Part shown: one piece after another, positions 43,802-54,164 of the stretch
Layout of the letters: the number at the start of each line of letters is the position of its first letter
Position numbering within the stretch: the first letter of the stretch is position 1
Origin: Verrucomicrobiota bacterium
Lineage (GTDB): Bacteria > Verrucomicrobiota > Kiritimatiellia > CAJWTS01
Assembly: GCA_027623315.1 (NCBI GenBank)
Contig: JAQBYD010000001.1
Location: forward strand, 1-64,000
Reading direction: 5' to 3'
DNA length: 64,000 nucleotides
The notes under the pieces: generated by a model
Databases searched by the model: none
What the model was told of the DNA's origin: nothing
The model's input: only the letters and a program-made list of their open reading frames with translations
Program-made: the position numbers and the translations under genes

Positions 43802-44086
43802 GAAGGTGCGGTTCGGCATGATGACTTGGGTCAGTTCTTCGACGATGATGATCGCGGATAGCAGCAGGCTTCCCTTCATCAGGCGCAGACGGCCAAGCTC
43901 GACTCGGGCACCGCGCATCGCGAGGTTGAGCAGAAGGGCCATCACCCCCATCAGGATAAAGTGACCGGCACGGTCATCACCGGGGAGCGCGTAGCACAGC
44001 GAGAGCAACGGTGCCCCCATGCCCATGTTGGCGAGAAAGATGACGACGATGAGAAACAGCGCGAAACTGAAGGTGATCCATTTCAT
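43436..44086 (-). CDS. VanZ-like membrane protein, C-terminal tail antisense to neighbour
   Basis: A 216-aa reading frame. Residues 1-about 120 (MKWITFSFALFLIVV onward) have four membrane helices and VanZ-like features (the acidic EELTQVIMPNRTFSLIDLGASLAG). The rest (RDTEHEIGEQHGAADNALRN...) is hydrophilic, low-complexity and antisense to the GT87-like gene, so the true protein may end earlier, with the stop lost. The ATG overlaps the TGA of the other VanZ-like gene (ATGA), so it is the last gene of the exosortase operon. VanZ-like proteins recur near exosortase genes; their job there is unknown. Confidence 0.7.
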   Translation of the reverse strand: MKWITFSFALFLIVVIFLANMGMGAPLLSLCYALPGDDRAGHFILMGVMALLLNLAMRGARVELGRLRLMKGSLLLSAIIIVEELTQVIMPNRTFSLIDLGASLAGVLVFGRLALLLPRRDTEHEIGEQHGAADNALRNPQGANARNREEHAQWSIAQVHDTRQHQYLDGEKQAGVAGPGNGGDQQARREPTRPGPAHQRADRTTSEQKGQGNQGR

Positions 44087-45342
44087 GATTTCAACTGCAG
44101 CCACAGATCGATCCCGATCGCTACCATGGCCAGCGGCATCAGCAGCATGTAGAAGGCGAGCTCCGGGAGGGCCGTGATCACGTAGCGGCTGACCTTGCTC
44201 CGATACGATGGCGAGGGATCGGCATGCGCTTTGAGCGTGTTAAGCTGCGACGGATACGGTGCGTAGTGTGACCGCTGCATCGTATTGGAGAAGTAGATCG
44301 ACATGATCTGGTATTCCTTGTAGCAGGACGTCGCGTGCTTGCGGACGCGCGCGGGGTTGAGGTCATCGCGCATCGGTTCGTCCCAGCGGTTGGTCCACAG
44401 AATTCCGAGATGATGGGTCATGCTCCAGAGATGGACGCGCGCCTCATGGATGAAGGGTTCGACATGGGCCGGATACGCTTCGAGGCACGCGTCGTAGAGA
44501 CGCGGATTGCGGAATTCGTCGAGCGCTCGGGCGGCTTCGCCGGCCCGTTCGGAATCGATTTTGTGAAGCGCTTCGGGTGACAGGCGGGATTTGAAAGCGC
44601 CTATCGCAGGGTCACGGTAAAGATGCCCGTACTCGCTCATCGTGCTCGGGTTGCGGTAGAGAGAATGGAGCGCGGGAATTCGCGTCGTGTACCGGTCCGC
44701 GCGTTCGGGCGTGTTGGCGAGGCACAGGATCGCGAGGACGATGAAGACCAGCGCCAGGCGGCAACCGGCCTGGATGGATCGCGCGGCGGGCCGCCGGTCG
44801 ATACCATCCGGACGAATGCCAAGCAGAACCGCGGCCTGCATCAGCGCCACGGCCGAGATGTTGAAGCCGATATCGCGCCAATCCCACAGCCGCCCGGGCG
44901 TCACCCACTGGATGATTTCATCAATCGTGCCCAGCAGCCCACCAATCAGGATTACGCAGGGATAGATCAGCACGTCGGGGATTCGGAAGCGCAGCGCGCG
45001 GAAGAGGAAGAGCCCCAGCAACCCGTACTCGAGGTAGTGCAGCGCTTCCACCGGTCGGTCGCGGCGTTGCCAGGCGTTGTAGAGCAGAATGGCTGCGATT
45101 AGCAGAAGCCACGCGACGCCCCGCGATGACGCCTGGCGCGGTGAGCGGTAAACGATTCGAATCAGAACCACGAACAGGGCCACGACGCCCGCCATGACGA
45201 TCCAGAGGAACGCCTCCGGCCCGCCGAGGTGCTCAAGCGCGAATCGGCGAATCTCGATCGCGAAGGGCACGGTCAGGTAGATCACAGCGGTCCACGCCAT
45301 AACCACGGCCCACGCCTGCCATTCTTTGCAGCTGATCGACAT
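44083..45342 (-). CDS. VanZ-like multi-helix membrane protein
   Basis: A 419-aa protein with about eight membrane helices. The central part has the VanZ signature (GTIDEIIQWVTPGRLWDWRDIGFN: an acidic-Gln pair followed by R-x-W-D-x-x-D and Asn). A periplasmic loop of about 130 residues separates this from two C-terminal helices. It lies 42 nt after the MSEP-CTERM-type gene and overlaps the next VanZ-like gene by ATGA. Likely an accessory of the exosortase/polysaccharide pathway; the precise activity is not known. Confidence 0.85.
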   Translation of the reverse strand: MSISCKEWQAWAVVMAWTAVIYLTVPFAIEIRRFALEHLGGPEAFLWIVMAGVVALFVVLIRIVYRSPRQASSRGVAWLLLIAAILLYNAWQRRDRPVEALHYLEYGLLGLFLFRALRFRIPDVLIYPCVILIGGLLGTIDEIIQWVTPGRLWDWRDIGFNISAVALMQAAVLLGIRPDGIDRRPAARSIQAGCRLALVFIVLAILCLANTPERADRYTTRIPALHSLYRNPSTMSEYGHLYRDPAIGAFKSRLSPEALHKIDSERAGEAARALDEFRNPRLYDACLEAYPAHVEPFIHEARVHLWSMTHHLGILWTNRWDEPMRDDLNPARVRKHATSCYKEYQIMSIYFSNTMQRSHYAPYPSQLNTLKAHADPSPSYRSKVSRYVITALPELAFYMLLMPLAMVAIGIDLWLQLKS

Positions 45343-45384: not shown

Positions 45385-48369
45385 TCAAATGCCGGCGAGA
45401 GCTCGCCGGCGCTGATTGAGCGCGGGTTTCTTCTTAAGGCGGCGTCGCATCAATAGAAAGACCACGGGTGCCAGCAGCCATGACGGGGGGACTGGCGACT
45501 CTACGAAATCATCAAAATCAAGTTGCGCGTGCGCGCCGAGGGATTGGTTCTCCTTGCGCTTCAGCATGGCCCATTGGGCACTGTTTTCGACCACGATGTA
45601 GGACGTCAGTGGCACCATGATGCCCGACGCGCGGCTCTGCTCGACGATGGCGGGCCGTTCACGATTCAATGTGGCGGGATGATGCGCCGTGGCGTACAGC
45701 TGCTGCCAGGCGGAGGCGCCTTTCGCGTACGGGGCATCGGGGGCGATGATCGTCCGGGCATCCACCGGTCGAAATTCGCCGGATGCGGGATCGAAAATCT
45801 CCAGTGCGGCGAGGTCGGCGGGAAGAACGGCGACCATCGCGACGTCTTCGGCGCGGCAGACCGCGTTACGCCCCGGCGTACGGAACTCGAACACAGGCGC
45901 TGGAGCCGGGATTCTGCCGACGACACGGCCGGCGCCACCATCGAAGGGTACCTGGGTCATCTGCCCCTCGGCGGCCTGAATGTAATAGTGCGGTGCATCG
46001 GGCGTCAGGTGTGCAAACGCGTACAGGCCGTCCACGATCAAGGGACGCGTGTTCTCGCCGTGGAGGGCGACAAAGACGGGTACGCCCGGCCGCCGCGGGC
46101 CGCTTGCGCGGTGCTGCTCCCGATCACCGAGCAAGGTCGCCTTAATGGCGCGCTCCGGGCAGAACGCACCTTCGAAGCGCATCTGCGTCGCGGCGCGACT
46201 GCGTAGCGCGCCTTTCACTCCACTGCGGTCGATGCGTCGAGTCGTCAACTCCGCGTGTGCGTAGTTCGCGGCGCTAATGCGGCAATGCTGAATGTCGGGA
46301 TTCGCGTCCAGCACGCCCAGGATTCGATCGGCCATCTGGGCCCATCCGGAGCTGCCGGTCGCAGAGGCATCGACGATGAAGTGCAGATAGGGCGTTCTTC
46401 TCGTGGTCGGCAGGGCCTGCGCGGCGTTGCGCGGGATGATCAGCCAGTCTTGGTCTGCGCCGGTGTCTACGCGAACGAGTCCGCGCGGATCGGGTGCGGG
46501 TCGAACCCCGGACACGCGACGGTCGCCGATGTCGAATACAGGGGTGATGCAGTCGGGGTAGAGGAATTCAATCTGGGTCACACGTTGTTGCCCCGCGGCG
46601 AAGGGGAAGACGCTCAGGGTCAGGCGGCGATACGTGTCGTACACGAGCAATCCCGGATCACGTCGTTCCGTATCGCGAATCATGTGATACACCCAGGCGG
46701 CGGTCTTCTTCTCGAAGATCCGTCCGGGGACGCGCGTTCCCTCAACGTCCAGCCAGTACCCCGAGACGAGCACGCCGTCCGGCAGCTCGATCGGCGTTCG
46801 GAACTCCGCCTGGGCGCTCGCCTCGTTCTGCATCGTCAGGGTCAGCGTGGCGCGGATCATGTTTCCTTCGTGCTGCTCGGTGAGCGACAGGTCGCTTAGC
46901 GTGACATTACGGCTGGGTCTCTGCGCGCCACCCCCGTCTCGCCAACCGGCACTCCGGCGGCGGGAGCCGCTGCGTGGCATAAACTCGGCGCCGATTCCGC
47001 TACGGCGTGCGTCTTCCCAGTCCGGTTCGGCGCCGAAGAGCAGTTCGTATACCGTGTCCATCTTCTGATCGGAGAGAACCATGCCCTCGAAGACGAGCTG
47101 GTTGTAGTACTCCGAGAGAAACGGCAGGTAGATTCCGTCCTTCATGCGGCGCAGACGCATCAGTGCGGCCCTGGCGAACTTGCGATTAATCGTCGGGCGG
47201 GCCTCGCTGAAGTCCGGGCTGTAGGTCAAGTCGACGGCCTGCATAAGGGCGTGCCGGTGCGCGATCGCGAGGGCGGAATAGCTCGCGGGAAGTACCGAGA
47301 TGCCGATGACGAAGGCTCCCAGCAGCGTCCAACGTCCGACCTGTGGGGCCAGCAACTTGTACTCCTCGTGGAGTTGGCGCGTATGCACGACGAAAAGCAG
47401 GGTGGGCGCCAGGATCAGGAAGCCTGCCCCCGCGGCGATCATGGCCACGATTGAGAGCGGCAGGAATGGCAGGAAGACGATGAAAAAATAGAGCGTGAAG
47501 GGGAGCAGCACAACGCGAACGGTCCACATGAGAAGACGCGGCGCGCGCCCGGCCGGAAATGGAAGCAGCAGCACGAGTCCGTTCAGGATGGTGAAGATGT
47601 ACACCTTAGGGTCCTGGAAATCGAACGGAAAGGGGATCGCCCGGTTCAGAAGCAGTCCGCCAATGGGCGCCGCGACACCGGCGATGAGGGGCAGGACGAA
47701 GCGGACCCGCCGGATGTCGTGCAGCCAACTATAGAGGTTCAGGAGAACACGCACGAACGCGAGCAGCATGATCACCGTCGAGCCGACGAACCCAAACACC
47801 ATAATGAGTTCGGGAAGTTGCCAGGGCGAAAACGTTTGGACGACGGCGAAGAGCAGGTACCACCCGGCCGGAATGCCGACCAGGGCAACGAGCGACACGC
47901 CTGCATCGACACCCCGGCCGAACGGCAATCGAAACGCGATTAAGCAGACGCCGGCGTAGAACACGGCCGGCATGATCAGTGCGAACTGGTTGAAGAGAAG
48001 CTCCGTTTCCGGGAGCATCCAGGTGCTCGCCGCTCGCGGGATAATCGACATTCCCCATGTGGTCAGCATCCAGAGATAGCCGATATGCAGCAGCAGCGTC
48101 GGAATGGCCGGTAGCCAACTGAAGATGCGTCCGCGGCGGCGCAGAAATACCCAGAGTCCTATGCCATAGCACAGTAGAGCCAGCTCGATCAGGCCGATGA
48201 TGGTGGCGTGCACGCGCTGTGTCGAATCCATCTCCCCCTGCACGAGTAGATAGGCCCGAACATTCAGTGCCAGCAGCAGAAGTTGTGGCAGGGCGAAGAG
48301 CCAGAGTATGTAAACCGGCTTGCGAACGGCTTCGGGGAGCAGTTCAAATGGTTTGTGCGAGTTGTTCAT
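45385..48369 (-). CDS. MSEP-CTERM-type polytopic VIT protein, predicted exosortase K substrate
   Basis: A 994-aa protein. About 14-445 contains ten or more membrane helices. About 505-610 resembles a VIT domain (GRIFEKKTAAWVYHMIRDTERRDPGLL pattern, then SVFPFAAGQQRVTQIEF). About 655-710 is vWA-like but its MIDAS is degenerate (DASATGS). The C-terminus is an exosortase sorting tail: ESPVPPSWLL (about 953-962), a short hydrophobic helix, then RRRLKKK. Exosortase K is known to be paired with a single MSEP-CTERM protein encoded next to it; here the motif is SPVPPSW rather than MSEP. The start overlaps the xrtK stop by 26 nt. Confidence 0.82.
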   Translation of the reverse strand: MNNSHKPFELLPEAVRKPVYILWLFALPQLLLLALNVRAYLLVQGEMDSTQRVHATIIGLIELALLCYGIGLWVFLRRRGRIFSWLPAIPTLLLHIGYLWMLTTWGMSIIPRAASTWMLPETELLFNQFALIMPAVFYAGVCLIAFRLPFGRGVDAGVSLVALVGIPAGWYLLFAVVQTFSPWQLPELIMVFGFVGSTVIMLLAFVRVLLNLYSWLHDIRRVRFVLPLIAGVAAPIGGLLLNRAIPFPFDFQDPKVYIFTILNGLVLLLPFPAGRAPRLLMWTVRVVLLPFTLYFFIVFLPFLPLSIVAMIAAGAGFLILAPTLLFVVHTRQLHEEYKLLAPQVGRWTLLGAFVIGISVLPASYSALAIAHRHALMQAVDLTYSPDFSEARPTINRKFARAALMRLRRMKDGIYLPFLSEYYNQLVFEGMVLSDQKMDTVYELLFGAEPDWEDARRSGIGAEFMPRSGSRRRSAGWRDGGGAQRPSRNVTLSDLSLTEQHEGNMIRATLTLTMQNEASAQAEFRTPIELPDGVLVSGYWLDVEGTRVPGRIFEKKTAAWVYHMIRDTERRDPGLLVYDTYRRLTLSVFPFAAGQQRVTQIEFLYPDCITPVFDIGDRRVSGVRPAPDPRGLVRVDTGADQDWLIIPRNAAQALPTTRRTPYLHFIVDASATGSSGWAQMADRILGVLDANPDIQHCRISAANYAHAELTTRRIDRSGVKGALRSRAATQMRFEGAFCPERAIKATLLGDREQHRASGPRRPGVPVFVALHGENTRPLIVDGLYAFAHLTPDAPHYYIQAAEGQMTQVPFDGGAGRVVGRIPAPAPVFEFRTPGRNAVCRAEDVAMVAVLPADLAALEIFDPASGEFRPVDARTIIAPDAPYAKGASAWQQLYATAHHPATLNRERPAIVEQSRASGIMVPLTSYIVVENSAQWAMLKRKENQSLGAHAQLDFDDFVESPVPPSWLLAPVVFLLMRRRLKKKPALNQRRRALAGI

Positions 48370-48853
48370 GTCGCGGCCTCCAGGTCAGTATTCCATAGGC
48401 GAGAACGAGAAACGTGACGAACACCCCGAGGCCTACGCACAGGTGAACGCTGCCCCAGAAGGGTTCGGCCAGAACGAGGCGCGCGCAACGTTCGGCGTAC
48501 CAGGCCAGGATGATGCGTGCGCAGTTAGCCGCCAGCGTAACGCCGTAGCCGTAGGCGCCCGCCGCGAGGAGCGAACCGATGCGCAGCCCCTTCTGACGAT
48601 CGGTGAACACCACGGCCGCAAGAATCGTCGAAAGGACAAAGAATCCGGCGGCACTACACGACAGTGTCACGTGGATCGGAAAGGGTGGCACCAGGATCAT
48701 GTAGCCTTCCCCGGTCGCCATGATCGGTGCGTTGAGGAAGAGGCCCGAGAACTGCGCGGATGGATAGCACAGGAACGACTTCCAGAATTCCGGGGCGATG
48801 TTCGTGAGCGGAAGCAGCAGCGCGATCGCGATAGCGGTCAGTATTGTCTTCAT
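48344..48853 (-). CDS. xrtK: Exosortase K, transpeptidase-like sorting enzyme
   Basis: A 169-aa protein with about five membrane helices and the exosortase catalytic triad: Cys66 (TLSCSAAGFF), Arg113 (ANCARIIL) and His137 (SVHLCVG). It is thought to cleave the C-terminal tail of its substrate and probably join it to a lipid-linked or cell-surface acceptor. The next gene downstream encodes the presumed sole substrate. The start MKTILTAI at 48853 is preferred: an earlier ATG (48886) lies in the loop of the strong hairpin at 48872-48898. The gene lies 54 nt after creD. Confidence 0.88.
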   Translation of the reverse strand: MKTILTAIAIALLLPLTNIAPEFWKSFLCYPSAQFSGLFLNAPIMATGEGYMILVPPFPIHVTLSCSAAGFFVLSTILAAVVFTDRQKGLRIGSLLAAGAYGYGVTLAANCARIILAWYAERCARLVLAEPFWGSVHLCVGLGVFVTFLVLAYGILTWRPRHEQLAQTI

Positions 48854-48871
48854 GAGGTCCCGGGAAGTTGC

Positions 48872-48898
48872 GCCCGGCCGTGCCATGCACGGCCGGGC
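48872..48898 (-). promoter_or_regulatory. Perfect hairpin between creD and xrtK
   Basis: The arms gcccggccgtgc (48872-48883) and gcacggccgggc (48887-48898) pair perfectly around the 3-nt loop cat. The stem is 12 bp and almost all GC. It fills half of the 53-nt gap. No T-run follows on the minus strand, so it is more likely a processing or attenuating element that sets the xrtK level relative to creD than a full terminator. Confidence 0.6.
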
Positions 48899-48906
48899 TG
48901 GGTTGT

Positions 48907-50145
48907 CTATGCGTTGGAGATCGCCGGCAGCGGCGGGGGTTCCGGGTTGTGCTCCGCGGGCTTCGCCGCGGGCGACTTTTCGAAGAACCCGTACCAGTCG
49001 ACCCTGGCCGTGACGCGCATCAGGACGCCAAGCGTGACGACGGATCCGATCGCGACCGTGAGTCCGGTCGTTCCCTTCAGGAAGAAGCTGTAGGAGAAGA
49101 GTACCAGGAAGAGGATCTGTCCTCCCGCCGCAACCTTCCAGGGAAACTCGCGGCCGAGCGCGGTCGCCAGGTAACTCGTGACCAGCGCCACGGAGACGAT
49201 CGCCGAGATGACGAACGAGACGTGGATCGGGATCAGGTCAACCATGTAGGCCAGCAGAAGATGGAAGGCAAAGAATCCGGCCGCAACAAACATGTAGTGC
49301 ATCGGGTGAATAGGGATCTTGTACATGATGTTGATCGTCGCGATAAGGACGAAGAAGAAAATCAGGCACACCGGCGCGAAGAACGTGATTCGCGACGCCA
49401 CGGGGCCGGGGTTGAGCCTTTCGGGGATGATCACGCCCATTTCCTGCGTCGTGATCAGATCGCTGGCCGCCCAGACGAGGTGAGCCTTGCCGCCGTTCAG
49501 ATCCGCGCTTTCGGGCGAGAGGCTGCGCTCGGTGTAGTCGACTTTTTCGAAATTGGTCGTTACGTCCAGCGTCAGGTTGCGGACGCGACCCACGTTCGGA
49601 TCCGGCACGTAGCGCCAGTCGGTCATGCCGCGCGTCTTGTAGGTCACGCGAAACGTCTTTTCCTCGCCGGGTTCGAGCTCGATAATCTCACCGAGCTCAC
49701 TGGCCGATGTGATCGGCATTTGGAGCGGCTGGTCATCGATCGCCGCTGAGAAACCGTTGTAGGTGCCTCCGGCTTTCGGGAACGCGAAGCGAAGACGAAT
49801 CTTCTGGGCGACCTCCTCGGTATTGACGATCGTATAGGCGCCGTCGAAGGTGCACTTATAGGTGGGGTACCAGATCAGTCCCTTCTTCCGGTAATCGGTC
49901 TCGAGCGCGACGCTGATTTCGTTTCGTTCCGCGACGAGCCAGCGGACCTGCTCGCTCCCGGGTATCGTGACCCCGAAGCTCGGCGCCGGTTGAGTGAGCG
50001 ATTCGCCCCACAACTCGCCGACGAGGAGGCCCAGGCGCGTGGCAAAGCCGCTGGAGCGCACGGTGGTCGAGGTTCCCAGGATCATCCAGCCCGCGCATGC
50101 GAGGAGGAAGATAAAGCCGACGGCGATGATTCGTTTAATACTCAC
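48907..50145 (-). CDS. creD: CreD-family inner-membrane protein
   Basis: A 412-aa protein: one N-terminal helix, about 240 residues of periplasmic beta-rich sequence, then five or six helices. The C-terminal part (IHPMHYMFVAAGFFAFHLLL, VSFVISAIVSVALVTSYLATAL, RVTARVDWYGFF) lines up well with Escherichia coli CreD (HPLQY..., KVDWYAL), a member of the CreBC regulon linked to envelope integrity. The N-terminal part is diverged. The start is a GTG at 50145 with AAGGAG eight nt upstream. It lies between the beta-rich protein and xrtK. Confidence 0.87.
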   Translation of the reverse strand: MSIKRIIAVGFIFLLACAGWMILGTSTTVRSSGFATRLGLLVGELWGESLTQPAPSFGVTIPGSEQVRWLVAERNEISVALETDYRKKGLIWYPTYKCTFDGAYTIVNTEEVAQKIRLRFAFPKAGGTYNGFSAAIDDQPLQMPITSASELGEIIELEPGEEKTFRVTYKTRGMTDWRYVPDPNVGRVRNLTLDVTTNFEKVDYTERSLSPESADLNGGKAHLVWAASDLITTQEMGVIIPERLNPGPVASRITFFAPVCLIFFFVLIATINIMYKIPIHPMHYMFVAAGFFAFHLLLAYMVDLIPIHVSFVISAIVSVALVTSYLATALGREFPWKVAAGGQILFLVLFSYSFFLKGTTGLTVAIGSVVTLGVLMRVTARVDWYGFFEKSPAAKPAEHNPEPPPLPAISNA

Positions 50146-50173: not shown

Positions 50174-51823
50174 TCAGTTGCGGATCAGAGCCTGTGCCTT
50201 CACAGGTTCCTTGTATGAAACGGCCAGTGTCATGCTTTCGCCCTTGTAGAAGGCGCGAGAGAAGAAGTGAGGCGTCCCGACAAACTCCTCTGGAACCGCG
50301 AGCTCGGGCACCGGTGCCGGGCTAACGGGGCCCTCCATGGAAAGGAGCTGCACGCGCGGCGGTAAGCCGATTCCGACGAGCAGATGCTTGGCAGGAATCC
50401 CCGTTTCAGGAACGGTGGTTTCAAGCCGTCCATGCAACCCGAGTTTCGCGCTCTTGCCAAGCAGCGCCAACTCGACGCGCGAGGGCTCGTCTCCAGCCAG
50501 CGGGATGATCCAGGTCTCGGCGGCGTCCGAGTACACCTGGCGGGATTCGCCGTTTACCTTCAGAGACCAGATCTCAACGTCCGAGATCGCGTGCAGTGCC
50601 AGGCGGGTGCCGGCCGTTGCCGGAACATCCATCACCAGGACCGAGAGGGCGCTCCCGTTTTCGTCGAACGTGGTATAGAACGCGATGGAGTCCAGGACGA
50701 TCGAAGGCGCCGCGACCGATTTGAACCGACGAAACATCAGGCGAAGTGGCGTGCCGCTCGCAGGGCTGAAGTAGCTGGGCTGCCGTCCGGCAACCTCGCG
50801 CAGCCGTGGGTGCAGTCGCGTTACCGGGTGTCGCGGCAACAGGGCTTCGTCCAGGATGTCGATATTCCCATCGTCCGGTTCAACAATGAGGATGTTTCCG
50901 TGGCTGCCCTTGTTCTCGCGCAGACGCGGCACCCGGATCGTGAACTCCTGGTCGCCGCTCGCCGCCGTCGCGAACTCGAAGCGAAGCTCGCGGGCCTCCA
51001 CCGGAATGTCGAGCAACAGCGCACCGTCCTCTTGCCGCCGCATCCATGAACGCTTGAGGGATGTCGAGATGAGCTGCAGGCCGTCGGGTACGTCCAGGAC
51101 CGACCCGGCGGGGAGCAGCTGGGAGAGAACGAGGTGCGTCGTGAGGATGGCGCGCTCATCCTTCATGCTGACCACGTTCAGCGCATCGGCGTCGACGATC
51201 GCCCTGGCAGCGCGTGTTGACGCATCCGTGAAGCGCACGGTCAGCAGCGACCCTGCGGCGAAGTGATAGAGATCATCCGCGCCGCGGACTCCGGGTTCTT
51301 CGATCAGCGTGACGCTCTCGCCGTGTTGCAGGCTGAGTGAGTTGCGGATCGCGTGCGGAATCCCGATATGCGCGTACTTCGACTGCTGATCCTCCTGGAC
51401 CGGCACCAGGAAAGAAAGTGAGACCTGGAACTCGTTGGTTCCGGTAGGCACCAACTCGATCTGTCCATCCTCGCCGGGTTGTCTCAACAAGGTTCCGCCG
51501 CTGACCTGGCCGACACTGGACACGATCATGCCGGGCCCGAAGAGGGGGATCGGTTCGATATCGCCGCCGAGCACGCTGCCGGTGATAAGCACCTGCCCGT
51601 CGACCCGGTCCGGGTGAATGGCGAGCTTGTAGTTGCCTTCCTTGATCGCGTAGACCAGCGGTTCGTGCGCTCGCGGCGCTTGTTCGCTCATCTCCGCGAA
51701 CTCGCGCTCGATGTTCTCGCGGTAGAGCGCTCGGAACTCATCCCACGATACCGTGACGCTTGAGCCGGCGATTGCGACCGCCGAGGTCATCAGCCACAGG
51801 GCCGTTACGGTTTGTACTTTCAT
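50174..51823 (-). CDS. Exported beta-rich protein, first gene of the CreD-exosortase operon
   Basis: A 549-aa protein starting MKVQTVTALW, with a signal peptide (about 1-20, AVAIAGSS) and no other strong membrane helix. The rest is a series of beta-rich modules. No named family is recognised, but one segment (IWSLKVNGESRQVYSDAAETWIIPL) resembles part of the 2234-aa protein at 2378-9082 (LWTAFVDGKVARPSLEGDAYRIPL), so the two probably share a domain type. The start at 51823 has AAGGAG upstream and follows the triple CreB tag. Function unknown; probably periplasmic. Confidence 0.75.
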   Translation of the reverse strand: MKVQTVTALWLMTSAVAIAGSSVTVSWDEFRALYRENIEREFAEMSEQAPRAHEPLVYAIKEGNYKLAIHPDRVDGQVLITGSVLGGDIEPIPLFGPGMIVSSVGQVSGGTLLRQPGEDGQIELVPTGTNEFQVSLSFLVPVQEDQQSKYAHIGIPHAIRNSLSLQHGESVTLIEEPGVRGADDLYHFAAGSLLTVRFTDASTRAARAIVDADALNVVSMKDERAILTTHLVLSQLLPAGSVLDVPDGLQLISTSLKRSWMRRQEDGALLLDIPVEARELRFEFATAASGDQEFTIRVPRLRENKGSHGNILIVEPDDGNIDILDEALLPRHPVTRLHPRLREVAGRQPSYFSPASGTPLRLMFRRFKSVAAPSIVLDSIAFYTTFDENGSALSVLVMDVPATAGTRLALHAISDVEIWSLKVNGESRQVYSDAAETWIIPLAGDEPSRVELALLGKSAKLGLHGRLETTVPETGIPAKHLLVGIGLPPRVQLLSMEGPVSPAPVPELAVPEEFVGTPHFFSRAFYKGESMTLAVSYKEPVKAQALIRN

Positions 51824-51889
51824 TGTGTATCTCCTTCTCCCTGGACACACCGTGTGGCCAGTGTTTGACGGAGAGAATGAACGAGCGGA

Positions 51890-51916
51890 GTGAAGTCTTT
51901 ATGAAGTCCGGGTGAA
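51890..51916 (-). promoter_or_regulatory. Triple CreB-tag-like repeat
   Basis: Read on the minus strand: TTCAC (51916-51912), six bases, TTCAT (51905-51901), six bases, TTCAC (51894-51890). The known CreB box of E. coli is TTCAC-N6-TTCAC. The spacing here is exactly 11 bp twice, one helical turn each. The repeat lies between divergent creB and the CreD-exosortase operon and points toward the operon. It probably also controls creBC. No clean -10 was recognised at the expected distance. Confidence 0.7.
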
Positions 51917-51995
51917 ATCGCGGAGGAAAGGAGGTTCTCGGCTGGTCACGCGTGCGCGATGGCGGTAGGCTGCCGTATCTCAACCGACCCCACCC

Positions 51996-52694
51996 ATGTC
52001 TCAGCGCATTCTCATTGTCGAAGACGAGCCCGCCATCGCGGACACCCTTACCTATGCGCTTGAGACCGACGGATTCGCGGTGGAGTGGTGCACCACCGCC
52101 GGCGACGCGCGTGCGCGCCTGGCGCAGGCCGAACCGGACGCGGTGATCCTGGATATCGGTCTCCCGGATGATAACGGGCTCGAGCTTTGCAAAGACATTC
52201 GCAAGGTGTCGAATGTCCCGGTCGTATTCCTCACAGCCCGTTCCGACGAAGTTGACCGCATCGTCGGCCTTGAGGTCGGTGCAGACGACTACGTCGTCAA
52301 ACCGTTCAGCCCGCGCGAGGTTTCCGCGCGCATCAAGGCCATCCTGAGACGCGTATCCAGCGCGGCACCTGCCGTGAAATCAAAACGGATGTCCGGGCCT
52401 ATCGCGATGGACCCGGACAAGCGCCAGGTGACCTACTTCGGAACAGCCCTGGACCTGCCGCGCTACGAATACCGAATCCTGGAGGTCCTGCTCGAGAGGC
52501 CGGGGCGCGTGTATTCGCGTGAGAAGCTGATGGATCTAGTTTGGGAGGAACCCGACGCCAGCCTGGACCGGACCGTCGACACGCATATCAAAACACTGCG
52601 CGCCCGGCTCCGCAATGTGAATGCGGAGATCGACCCGATTCAGACCCATCGTGGCGTCGGGTACTCACTACGTGACGATCTGTCCCCTGGGTAG
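51996..52694 (+). CDS. creB: Response regulator CreB, OmpR/PhoB family
   Basis: A 232-aa regulator. The receiver domain has the phospho-acceptor Asp53 (VILDIGLPD), the conserved Thr (FLTARS) and Lys (VKPFSP). The C-terminal winged-helix is of OmpR type. The likeness to E. coli CreB is close along the whole length (IADTL, LTARSEEVDR/LTARSDEVDR, DRTVDTHIKTLRA, THRGxGYSLR). It binds TTCAC repeats when phosphorylated by CreC. It is followed after 33 nt by creC. Confidence 0.95.
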   Translation: MSQRILIVEDEPAIADTLTYALETDGFAVEWCTTAGDARARLAQAEPDAVILDIGLPDDNGLELCKDIRKVSNVPVVFLTARSDEVDRIVGLEVGADDYVVKPFSPREVSARIKAILRRVSSAAPAVKSKRMSGPIAMDPDKRQVTYFGTALDLPRYEYRILEVLLERPGRVYSREKLMDLVWEEPDASLDRTVDTHIKTLRARLRNVNAEIDPIQTHRGVGYSLRDDLSPG

Positions 52695-52727: not shown

Positions 52728-54164
52728 ATGCGCATCCGCACACGTATCATCATCGCCTTCCTGATCCCGGGTGCCCTCGGGTTTTACTTTCTGGTGGACT
52801 GGGTTCTCGACGATGTGCGTCCTCGCTATCTCGAAGCGATGGAGGAGTCGATGATCGATATGGCCACGATCCTGGCGACGGCACTGTCCGATCCGCCCGA
52901 CGCGCCGACAATCGACGCGACGAGCATCGATACCACGCTTCGTCGCGCGAAGATACGGGTCTTCGACGCCAGGATATACGGAATTACTAAAGAACAGATC
53001 GACATGCGCGTTTATGTCACCGATACAGATGGGATCGTGATCTATGATTCCGATCACGGCCGTGCCGTGGGTGACGACTACTCAAACTGGAACGACGTCT
53101 ATCGCACGCTGCGCGCCGAGTATGGAGCCCGCGCAACCCGGTCGAATCCGGATGACCCGACGTCGTCCATCCTCCACGTCGCGGCACCGGTCTATTCCGG
53201 CAAAGAGATCATCGGCTCCCTCACGGTCAGCAAACCGACCGGTAGCCTGACCCTGTTCATGGAGGCGGCACGCCGCAAAGTGGTCCTGGCCGGACTCGTT
53301 GCTTTCGCCGTCGTGATCGTTCTGGGTGCAGTCCTGTCGGTCTGGATCACCCGCCCCATCGAAGTGCTCACGCGATATGCCAAGGCGGTGAGGGACGGGC
53401 GGCGCCCGCCGCCGCCAGCTCCCGGCAGCGGCGAGATCGGAGACCTCGGAGATGCGTTTGAGGAGATGCGGGATGCCCTGGAGGGCAAACAGTACGTCGA
53501 AGGCTACGTCCAGACTCTCACGCACGAGATGAAGAGTCCGATTTCCGCCGTGCGCGGTGCCGCCGAGCTTTTGGATGAGGACATGCCGGTCGAAAAGCGC
53601 CGGCAGTTCCTCGCCAATATCCGGTCCGAGACGAATCGAATGCAGGACCTCGTCGACCGGATGCTGCTCCTTTCTTCACTGGAGACGCGCAAGGCACTTC
53701 ACGACGTAGAGCCCATCGACCTCGCGAGCATGATCACGGATGTCATTTCGAGCCTGCGGCCACAATGGGAGCAGAAGTCGCTAAGCATCACGTCGCCGCG
53801 CGAATCAAGTGTCACGATCCATGGCGAGGCATTCCTGATTCGTCATGCCCTGACGAACCTGGTTGGTAACGCGATCGACTTCGCCCCGACAGGAAGCGCG
53901 GTGTCGATCGAGCTCAAGAGCATCGGCGATACCGTCGCTATCGAAGTTGCCGACGCCGGGCCGGGCGTTCCGCCATACGCCTGCGACAAGATCTTTGACC
54001 GGTTCTACTCCATCGAGCGTCCTGCGACCGGCCGCAAAAGCACCGGGCTTGGTCTCGTGATTGCCCGTGAAGCCGCCGAACTGCATTCGGGAACGGTGGA
54101 GCTGGTCAATGCCCCGTCCGGCGGCGCCATCGCCACGCTCCGTCTCCCGCTCGAGTCGCCATGA
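52728..54164 (+). CDS. creC: Sensor histidine kinase CreC
   Basis: A 478-aa kinase: two membrane helices (about 7-25 and 183-205) flanking a periplasmic domain whose motifs match CreC (YVTDTDGIVIYDSDHG, DYSNWNDVYRTLRAEYGAR, DDPTSSILHVAAPV), a HAMP-like linker, the HisKA motif LTHEMKSPISAVRGAAELL (His266) and the HATPase boxes (NLVGNAIDF, DAGPGVP, GLGLVIA). It senses an envelope or metabolic signal and phosphorylates CreB. Its end converges with the GT9 gene across a hairpin. Confidence 0.95.
   Translation: MRIRTRIIIAFLIPGALGFYFLVDWVLDDVRPRYLEAMEESMIDMATILATALSDPPDAPTIDATSIDTTLRRAKIRVFDARIYGITKEQIDMRVYVTDTDGIVIYDSDHGRAVGDDYSNWNDVYRTLRAEYGARATRSNPDDPTSSILHVAAPVYSGKEIIGSLTVSKPTGSLTLFMEAARRKVVLAGLVAFAVVIVLGAVLSVWITRPIEVLTRYAKAVRDGRRPPPPAPGSGEIGDLGDAFEEMRDALEGKQYVEGYVQTLTHEMKSPISAVRGAAELLDEDMPVEKRRQFLANIRSETNRMQDLVDRMLLLSSLETRKALHDVEPIDLASMITDVISSLRPQWEQKSLSITSPRESSVTIHGEAFLIRHALTNLVGNAIDFAPTGSAVSIELKSIGDTVAIEVADAGPGVPPYACDKIFDRFYSIERPATGRKSTGLGLVIAREAAELHSGTVELVNAPSGGAIATLRLPLESP

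Follow-up and report, generated by a model that had tools for sequence, protein, structure and literature searches.

The window, a stretch of 64,000 nucleotides of verrucomicrobial DNA, contains three TTCAY half-sites in exact 11 bp phase, which are very probably a CreB operator that would switch on the minus-strand operon ORF549-creD-like-xrtK-msepCTERM-vanZ. The repeat lies between the initiation codon of this operon (51823) and that of creB (51996), which is transcribed in the opposite direction, and it is followed at a conserved distance by a predicted -10 box. Similar arrays are associated with creBC in many other genomes.

The repeat and its promoter

Read from 51916 down to 51890, the minus strand is TTCAC-CCGGAC-TTCAT-AAAGAC-TTCAC, with both steps exactly 11 bp. 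The triple TTCAC-type repeat and its position between two divergent transcription units, both described in the initial annotation, are as stated there. The outer two half-sites are exact TTCAC, 22 bp apart, while either adjacent pair departs from the TTCAC-N6-TTCAC tag by a single C-to-T change at position 5. In related arrays position 5 is about equally C (0.54) and T (0.44). The features of the region, with the basis of each assignment, are:

51912-51916, minus strand: half-site 3, TTCAC, distal to the promoter (sequence)
51901-51905, minus strand: half-site 2, TTCAT (sequence)
51890-51894, minus strand: half-site 1, TTCAC, adjoining the -10 box (sequence)
51923-51927, minus strand: possible decayed fourth half-site, TCCTC, with 2 mismatches, 11 bp further upstream (slot 4 is filled in related promoters, see below)
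51874-51879, minus strand: predicted -10 box, CATTCT, separated from half-site 1 by 10 nt (YAnnnT at the conserved offset)
51831-51836, minus strand: ribosome binding site of the target operon, AAGGAG (sequence)

The exact triple TTCAY-N6-TTCAY-N6-TTCAY is present only once in the whole 3.875 Mb genome, at this site. From the frequency of the half-site, 0.034 copies would be expected genome-wide, and 1.5e-6 within this intergenic region. One-mismatch copies of TTCAC-N6-TTCAC are about as frequent in the window as chance predicts (3 against 2.6). In the same genome, sites with 1-2 mismatches that might mark further CreB targets are few and many are intragenic, with none having an array and -10 box before a plausible gene. 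Before a PAS-domain sensor kinase (G000:C34:17116-17164), five TTCAC/CTCAC half-sites follow one another at 11 bp in degenerate form, with no -10 box at the conserved distance.

When 38 distinct arrays were aligned on their last half-site, a YAnnnT box started exactly at nucleotide 11 after it in 22 of them (next best offset, 5), with A at position 12 in 74% and T at position 16 in 89%. An independent test of this rule on 28 arrays from a separate collection placed the box at offset 11 in 15, with at most 3 at any other offset. The window site matches the full pattern, array and -10 box at the conserved distance, without a mismatch. Counting back from the -10 box puts the last half-site at about -25 and the one upstream of it at about -36, the layout of PhoB class II promoters.

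Because the conserved -10 box stands 10 nt downstream on the minus strand, the array points at the operon that bears the exosortase gene. The orientation given in the initial annotation is thus supported, but the first gene of this operon is the creD partner, with the exosortase gene further down. No -10 box at the conserved geometry is seen toward creB. That the operator instead mainly controls creBC, through activating or repressing autoregulation with only a secondary effect on the minus-strand operon, is unlikely. The site is 80 bp before the start of creB, and in some Akkermansiaceae-type loci (L111, L117, L120) arrays are directly before creB, both of which would fit autoregulation. However, the window half-sites and the conserved -10 box face the minus strand only, and at L095, L097, and L224, where the ORF549-creD pair is behind creC, the array is before that pair and not before creB. 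As a main role, creB autoregulation was rejected on the lack of a -10 box in its direction.

The target operon

The genes of the minus-strand operon, in order of transcription, are:

50174-51823, minus strand: ORF549, promoter-proximal gene of the operon, 549 aa, no family match (ATG at 51823; a conserved companion of creD-like genes downstream of creC in other genomes)
48907-50145, minus strand: CreD-like inner membrane protein (PF06123 matched by the C-terminal half, 51.6 bits, above the gathering cut-off)
48344-48886, minus strand: XrtK-like exosortase (TIGR04287, 42.2 bits, below the cut-off of 55)
45385-48369, minus strand: MSEP-CTERM protein with VIT domain (TIGR04286, 441 bits, cut-off 150)
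44083-45342, minus strand: VanZ-family protein, late operon gene

These five genes are likely to form one operon, as they overlap or are separated by gaps of no more than 42 bp. The CreD-like protein scores below the equivalog for full-length CreD (NF008712, 45 bits, cut-off 275). The exosortase is called XrtK-like only, since its TIGR04287 score is under the cut-off, although it adjoins a clear MSEP-CTERM protein. The repeat is upstream of a creD-family gene, the second of the operon; its direct target would be the conserved creD partner ORF549, followed by the CreD-like gene, with the XrtK-like and MSEP-CTERM genes downstream in the same predicted operon.

CreB and CreC

The divergent transcription unit encodes the regulatory pair:

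51996-52694, plus strand: CreB response regulator (NF008296, 338 bits, cut-off 273)
52728-54164, plus strand: CreC sensor kinase (NF008312, 578 bits, cut-off 356)

With these strong equivalog HMM matches, the genome encodes a CreB orthologue. The window CreB has 53% of its residues in common with that of E. coli, and its recognition helix, DRTVDTHIKTLRA(K/R)LR, is the same as in E. coli CreB apart from one K/R change. Across the CreB helices from 87 loci, R-T-V-D-x-H-x-K-x-x-R is invariant, part of this motif having been demanded by the search pattern itself. The CreC proteins of one family of the same class are closest to Pontiella, at 64-67%, which makes Kiritimatiellia the probable class.

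In the proposed mechanism, phosphorylated CreB, supplied by the divergent creBC, would bind head-to-tail on the three, or perhaps three and a half, 11 bp half-sites, which would stand in for a -35 element. CreB would then recruit σ70 RNA polymerase to CATTCT, the -10 box at 51879-51874, and so switch on ORF549-creD-like-xrtK-msepCTERM-vanZ. The geometry of 11 bp direct repeats, 10 nt, and -10 box would correspond to PhoB-type class II activation.

Conservation of the arrays

CreC is present above the cut-off in 57 of the 388 genomes in the phylum search. Around creBC, 56 loci (604 kb) contain 25 exact TTCAY triples at 11 bp spacing, whereas the remaining spacings between 6 and 17 bp yield only 2, both at 7 bp. 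In an independent collection of 80 loci from many phyla, the 11 bp spacing gives 28 and each other spacing 0-2. The initial annotation had proposed conservation of the repeats in relatives as a test of its reading, and the arrays do flank creBC across the Verrucomicrobiota. Its suggestion that the tag is conserved in very distant phyla is also supported, with arrays at loci labelled Hydrogenedentota, Desulfobacterota, Planctomycetota, Myxococcota, and others. The labels of the 80 loci also include Fermentibacteria, Bdellovibrionota, Verrucomicrobiota, and Proteobacteria, and at least one label is probably wrong (L223). This locus (JAHIJU010000505.1), titled Actinomycetota, encodes the same CreC, at 100% identity, as the verrucomicrobial genome G287 and is probably a mislabelled MAG.

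Genome-wide, there are 96 exact triples in 37 of 55 genomes with CreC and 11 in 9 of 55 without it, the two groups being unmatched for size and phylogeny. The reversed pattern, as a control, is found 3 and 1 times, respectively. The exact triple is absent from 18 of the 55 genomes with CreC. Arrays of TTCAY in 11 bp phase therefore appear to track the presence of CreC.

PHO boxes are also 11 nt direct repeats, and the core half-site of S. coelicolor PhoP, GTTCACC, contains TTCAC (PMC4415409). For this reason a PhoB/PhoP-type PHO box, with the phosphate regulator in place of CreB as its binder, was considered as an alternative and tested against the regions upstream of pstS. In 30 of these, including that of the genome itself, there is no TTCAY triple and there are just two one-mismatch TTCAY pairs, whereas 18 of 49 loci have TTCA repeated at 11 bp behind creC, against an expectation of 0.9. 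The arrays follow the presence of CreC and flank creBC and creD, which also argues against a PHO box. PhoB was rejected as the binder of the window repeats on the pstS comparison, leaving this reading improbable, slightly more so than creB autoregulation.

In the pstS upstream regions (L345-L374), CTAA and TAAC are the 4-mers most often repeated at 11 bp (3 loci each) and are perhaps the PhoB half-site of the phylum. In an Opitutaceae-type genome, G123:C1:1446085-1508665 contains about 40 PstS-like phosphate-binding genes or fragments, mostly in one stretch (43 matches in the genome).

A chance repeat in the intergenic stretch would agree with the chance level of one-mismatch pairs in the window, but is scarcely credible given the expectations for the exact triple and the conservation of spacing and -10 box in independent lineages.

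Number of half-sites

Promoters were picked by half-sites 1 and 2 and the -10 box alone, with the third not required and shifted positions as the control. In the 16 promoters found in this way, slot 3 is filled in 14 (control 0.5), slot 4 in 9 (control 0.8), and slot 5 in 1 (control 0.5), which would make the operator a bounded array of 3-4 half-sites. Outside the Verrucomicrobiota and the classical Proteobacteria, the third is filled in 6 of 8, the fourth in 7 of 8, and the fifth in none of 8. By this comparison of sequences, operators outside the enterics usually have 3-4 half-sites, and the three copies in the window are no oddity.

The count of 3-4 half-sites in related operators, with a fifth seldom present, suggests that an operator would probably seat up to two CreB dimers as its natural unit, in a PhoB-like activating geometry. 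More than one dimer may bind cooperatively. The three half-sites of the window do not divide evenly into dimers, which is a point against this model.

ORF549-creD and exosortase genes in other genomes

Homologues of ORF549 and the CreD-like gene are directly behind creC in G249, G167, and the MAG loci L224, L225, L228, L229, and L232. An array is in front of the pair behind creC at L095, L097, L224, L228, and L232. In the window, the pair is instead transcribed divergently from creBC and continues into the XrtK and MSEP-CTERM genes, which elsewhere are a two-gene unit (adjacent in G369, G360, G143, G287, and others). Two other genomes with CreC have arrays at such loci: in G161, 3 half-sites and the -10 box TATGGT precede the MSEP-CTERM gene, and in G144, 4 half-sites and the -10 box TACGCT precede XrtK-like and MSEP-CTERM genes. 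In G161 no ORF549 homologue was found behind creC, where the array precedes an unassigned membrane protein. No array was found in the stretches examined of G287, G051, and G132, which have both CreC and MSEP-CTERM. Nor are there arrays at the MSEP-CTERM loci of genomes without CreC, except for one 3.4 kb downstream in G141.

G196, G213, and G319 each have a triple array upstream of the creBC region. In G196 (L327, 7742-12444), the annotated one of the three, the array is followed by CreD, a VIT protein, an EpsH-type exosortase, and then creBC, a second, independent linkage of CreBC with an exosortase.

There is perhaps an even chance that the ancestral CreB operator was an array of 3-4 half-sites seating two dimers, of which the E. 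coli tag would be a reduced form, and that CreBC independently took over an exosortase/MSEP-CTERM (or VIT-protein) module in several lineages. The lineages in question are those of the window, with the module behind ORF549-creD; G161 and G144, with their own arrays; and G196, with CreD, VIT protein, exosortase, and creBC. If so, CreBC would be an envelope-stress switch for surface protein sorting.

The CreB recognition sequence, defined in E. coli and Aeromonas, is usually quoted as a tag of two half-sites. The composite rule of 2-4 TTCAY at 11 bp, 10 nt, and YAnnnT holds from E. coli to the Verrucomicrobiota, and would make the CreB regulon predictable in phyla without CreB data and give a testable stoichiometry. 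Literature searches, which left most subscription papers outside their scope, found nothing on CreB sites in Verrucomicrobiota and no paper on an exosortase together with MSEP-CTERM. In the literature searched there was no inducing signal for XrtK/MSEP-CTERM sorting, for which the predicted CreB operator would be a regulatory lead.

Comparison with known systems

The window shares with the XrtK/MSEP-CTERM system (TIGR04287/TIGR04286) the adjacent XrtK-like and MSEP-CTERM genes, but has them behind ORF549 and a creD-like gene, under a predicted CreB operator, whereas most MSEP-CTERM loci of genomes without CreC have no array.

As in PhoB class II promoters, a regulator of the OmpR/PhoB family is combined with 11 nt direct repeats in place of a -35 element, and tandem head-to-tail binding is predicted here. 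The PHO box is likewise made up of 11 nt tandem repeats, with σ70 contact and multiple boxes at some promoters (PMC4415409). Its half-site is CTGTCAT, unlike the TTCAY of the window, which is tied to CreBC and creD and is absent from the pstS promoters studied here.

The cre/blr tag, TTCAC-N6-TTCAC, has been reported from E. coli, Aeromonas, and S. maltophilia (PMC3660660; PMC4689548), and the targets of E. coli CreB and Aeromonas BlrA share with the window the half-site and 11 bp direct-repeat phase before creD-family genes. In S. maltophilia CreBC represses creD and does not activate it (PMC4689548), so the window site by itself does not tell whether CreB would activate or repress. The tag has two half-sites, whereas the window has three TTCAY, alternating TTCAC and TTCAT, and many relatives have four. 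The operon in the window, with its exosortase and MSEP-CTERM partner, also differs from the targets of the tag. In E. coli K-12, creD (L222:5602-5644) has TTCAC-N6-TTCAC-N5-TTCAA-N10-CATAGT, with a third copy, TTCAA, at 10 bp and the -10 box 10 nt beyond this copy. The E. coli targets cbrA (TTCAC-N6-TTCAC-N10-TAGTCT) and cbrB (TTCAC-N6-TTCAC-N10-TAAATT) have the geometry of the window promoter, with 10 nt from the last half-site to the -10 box.
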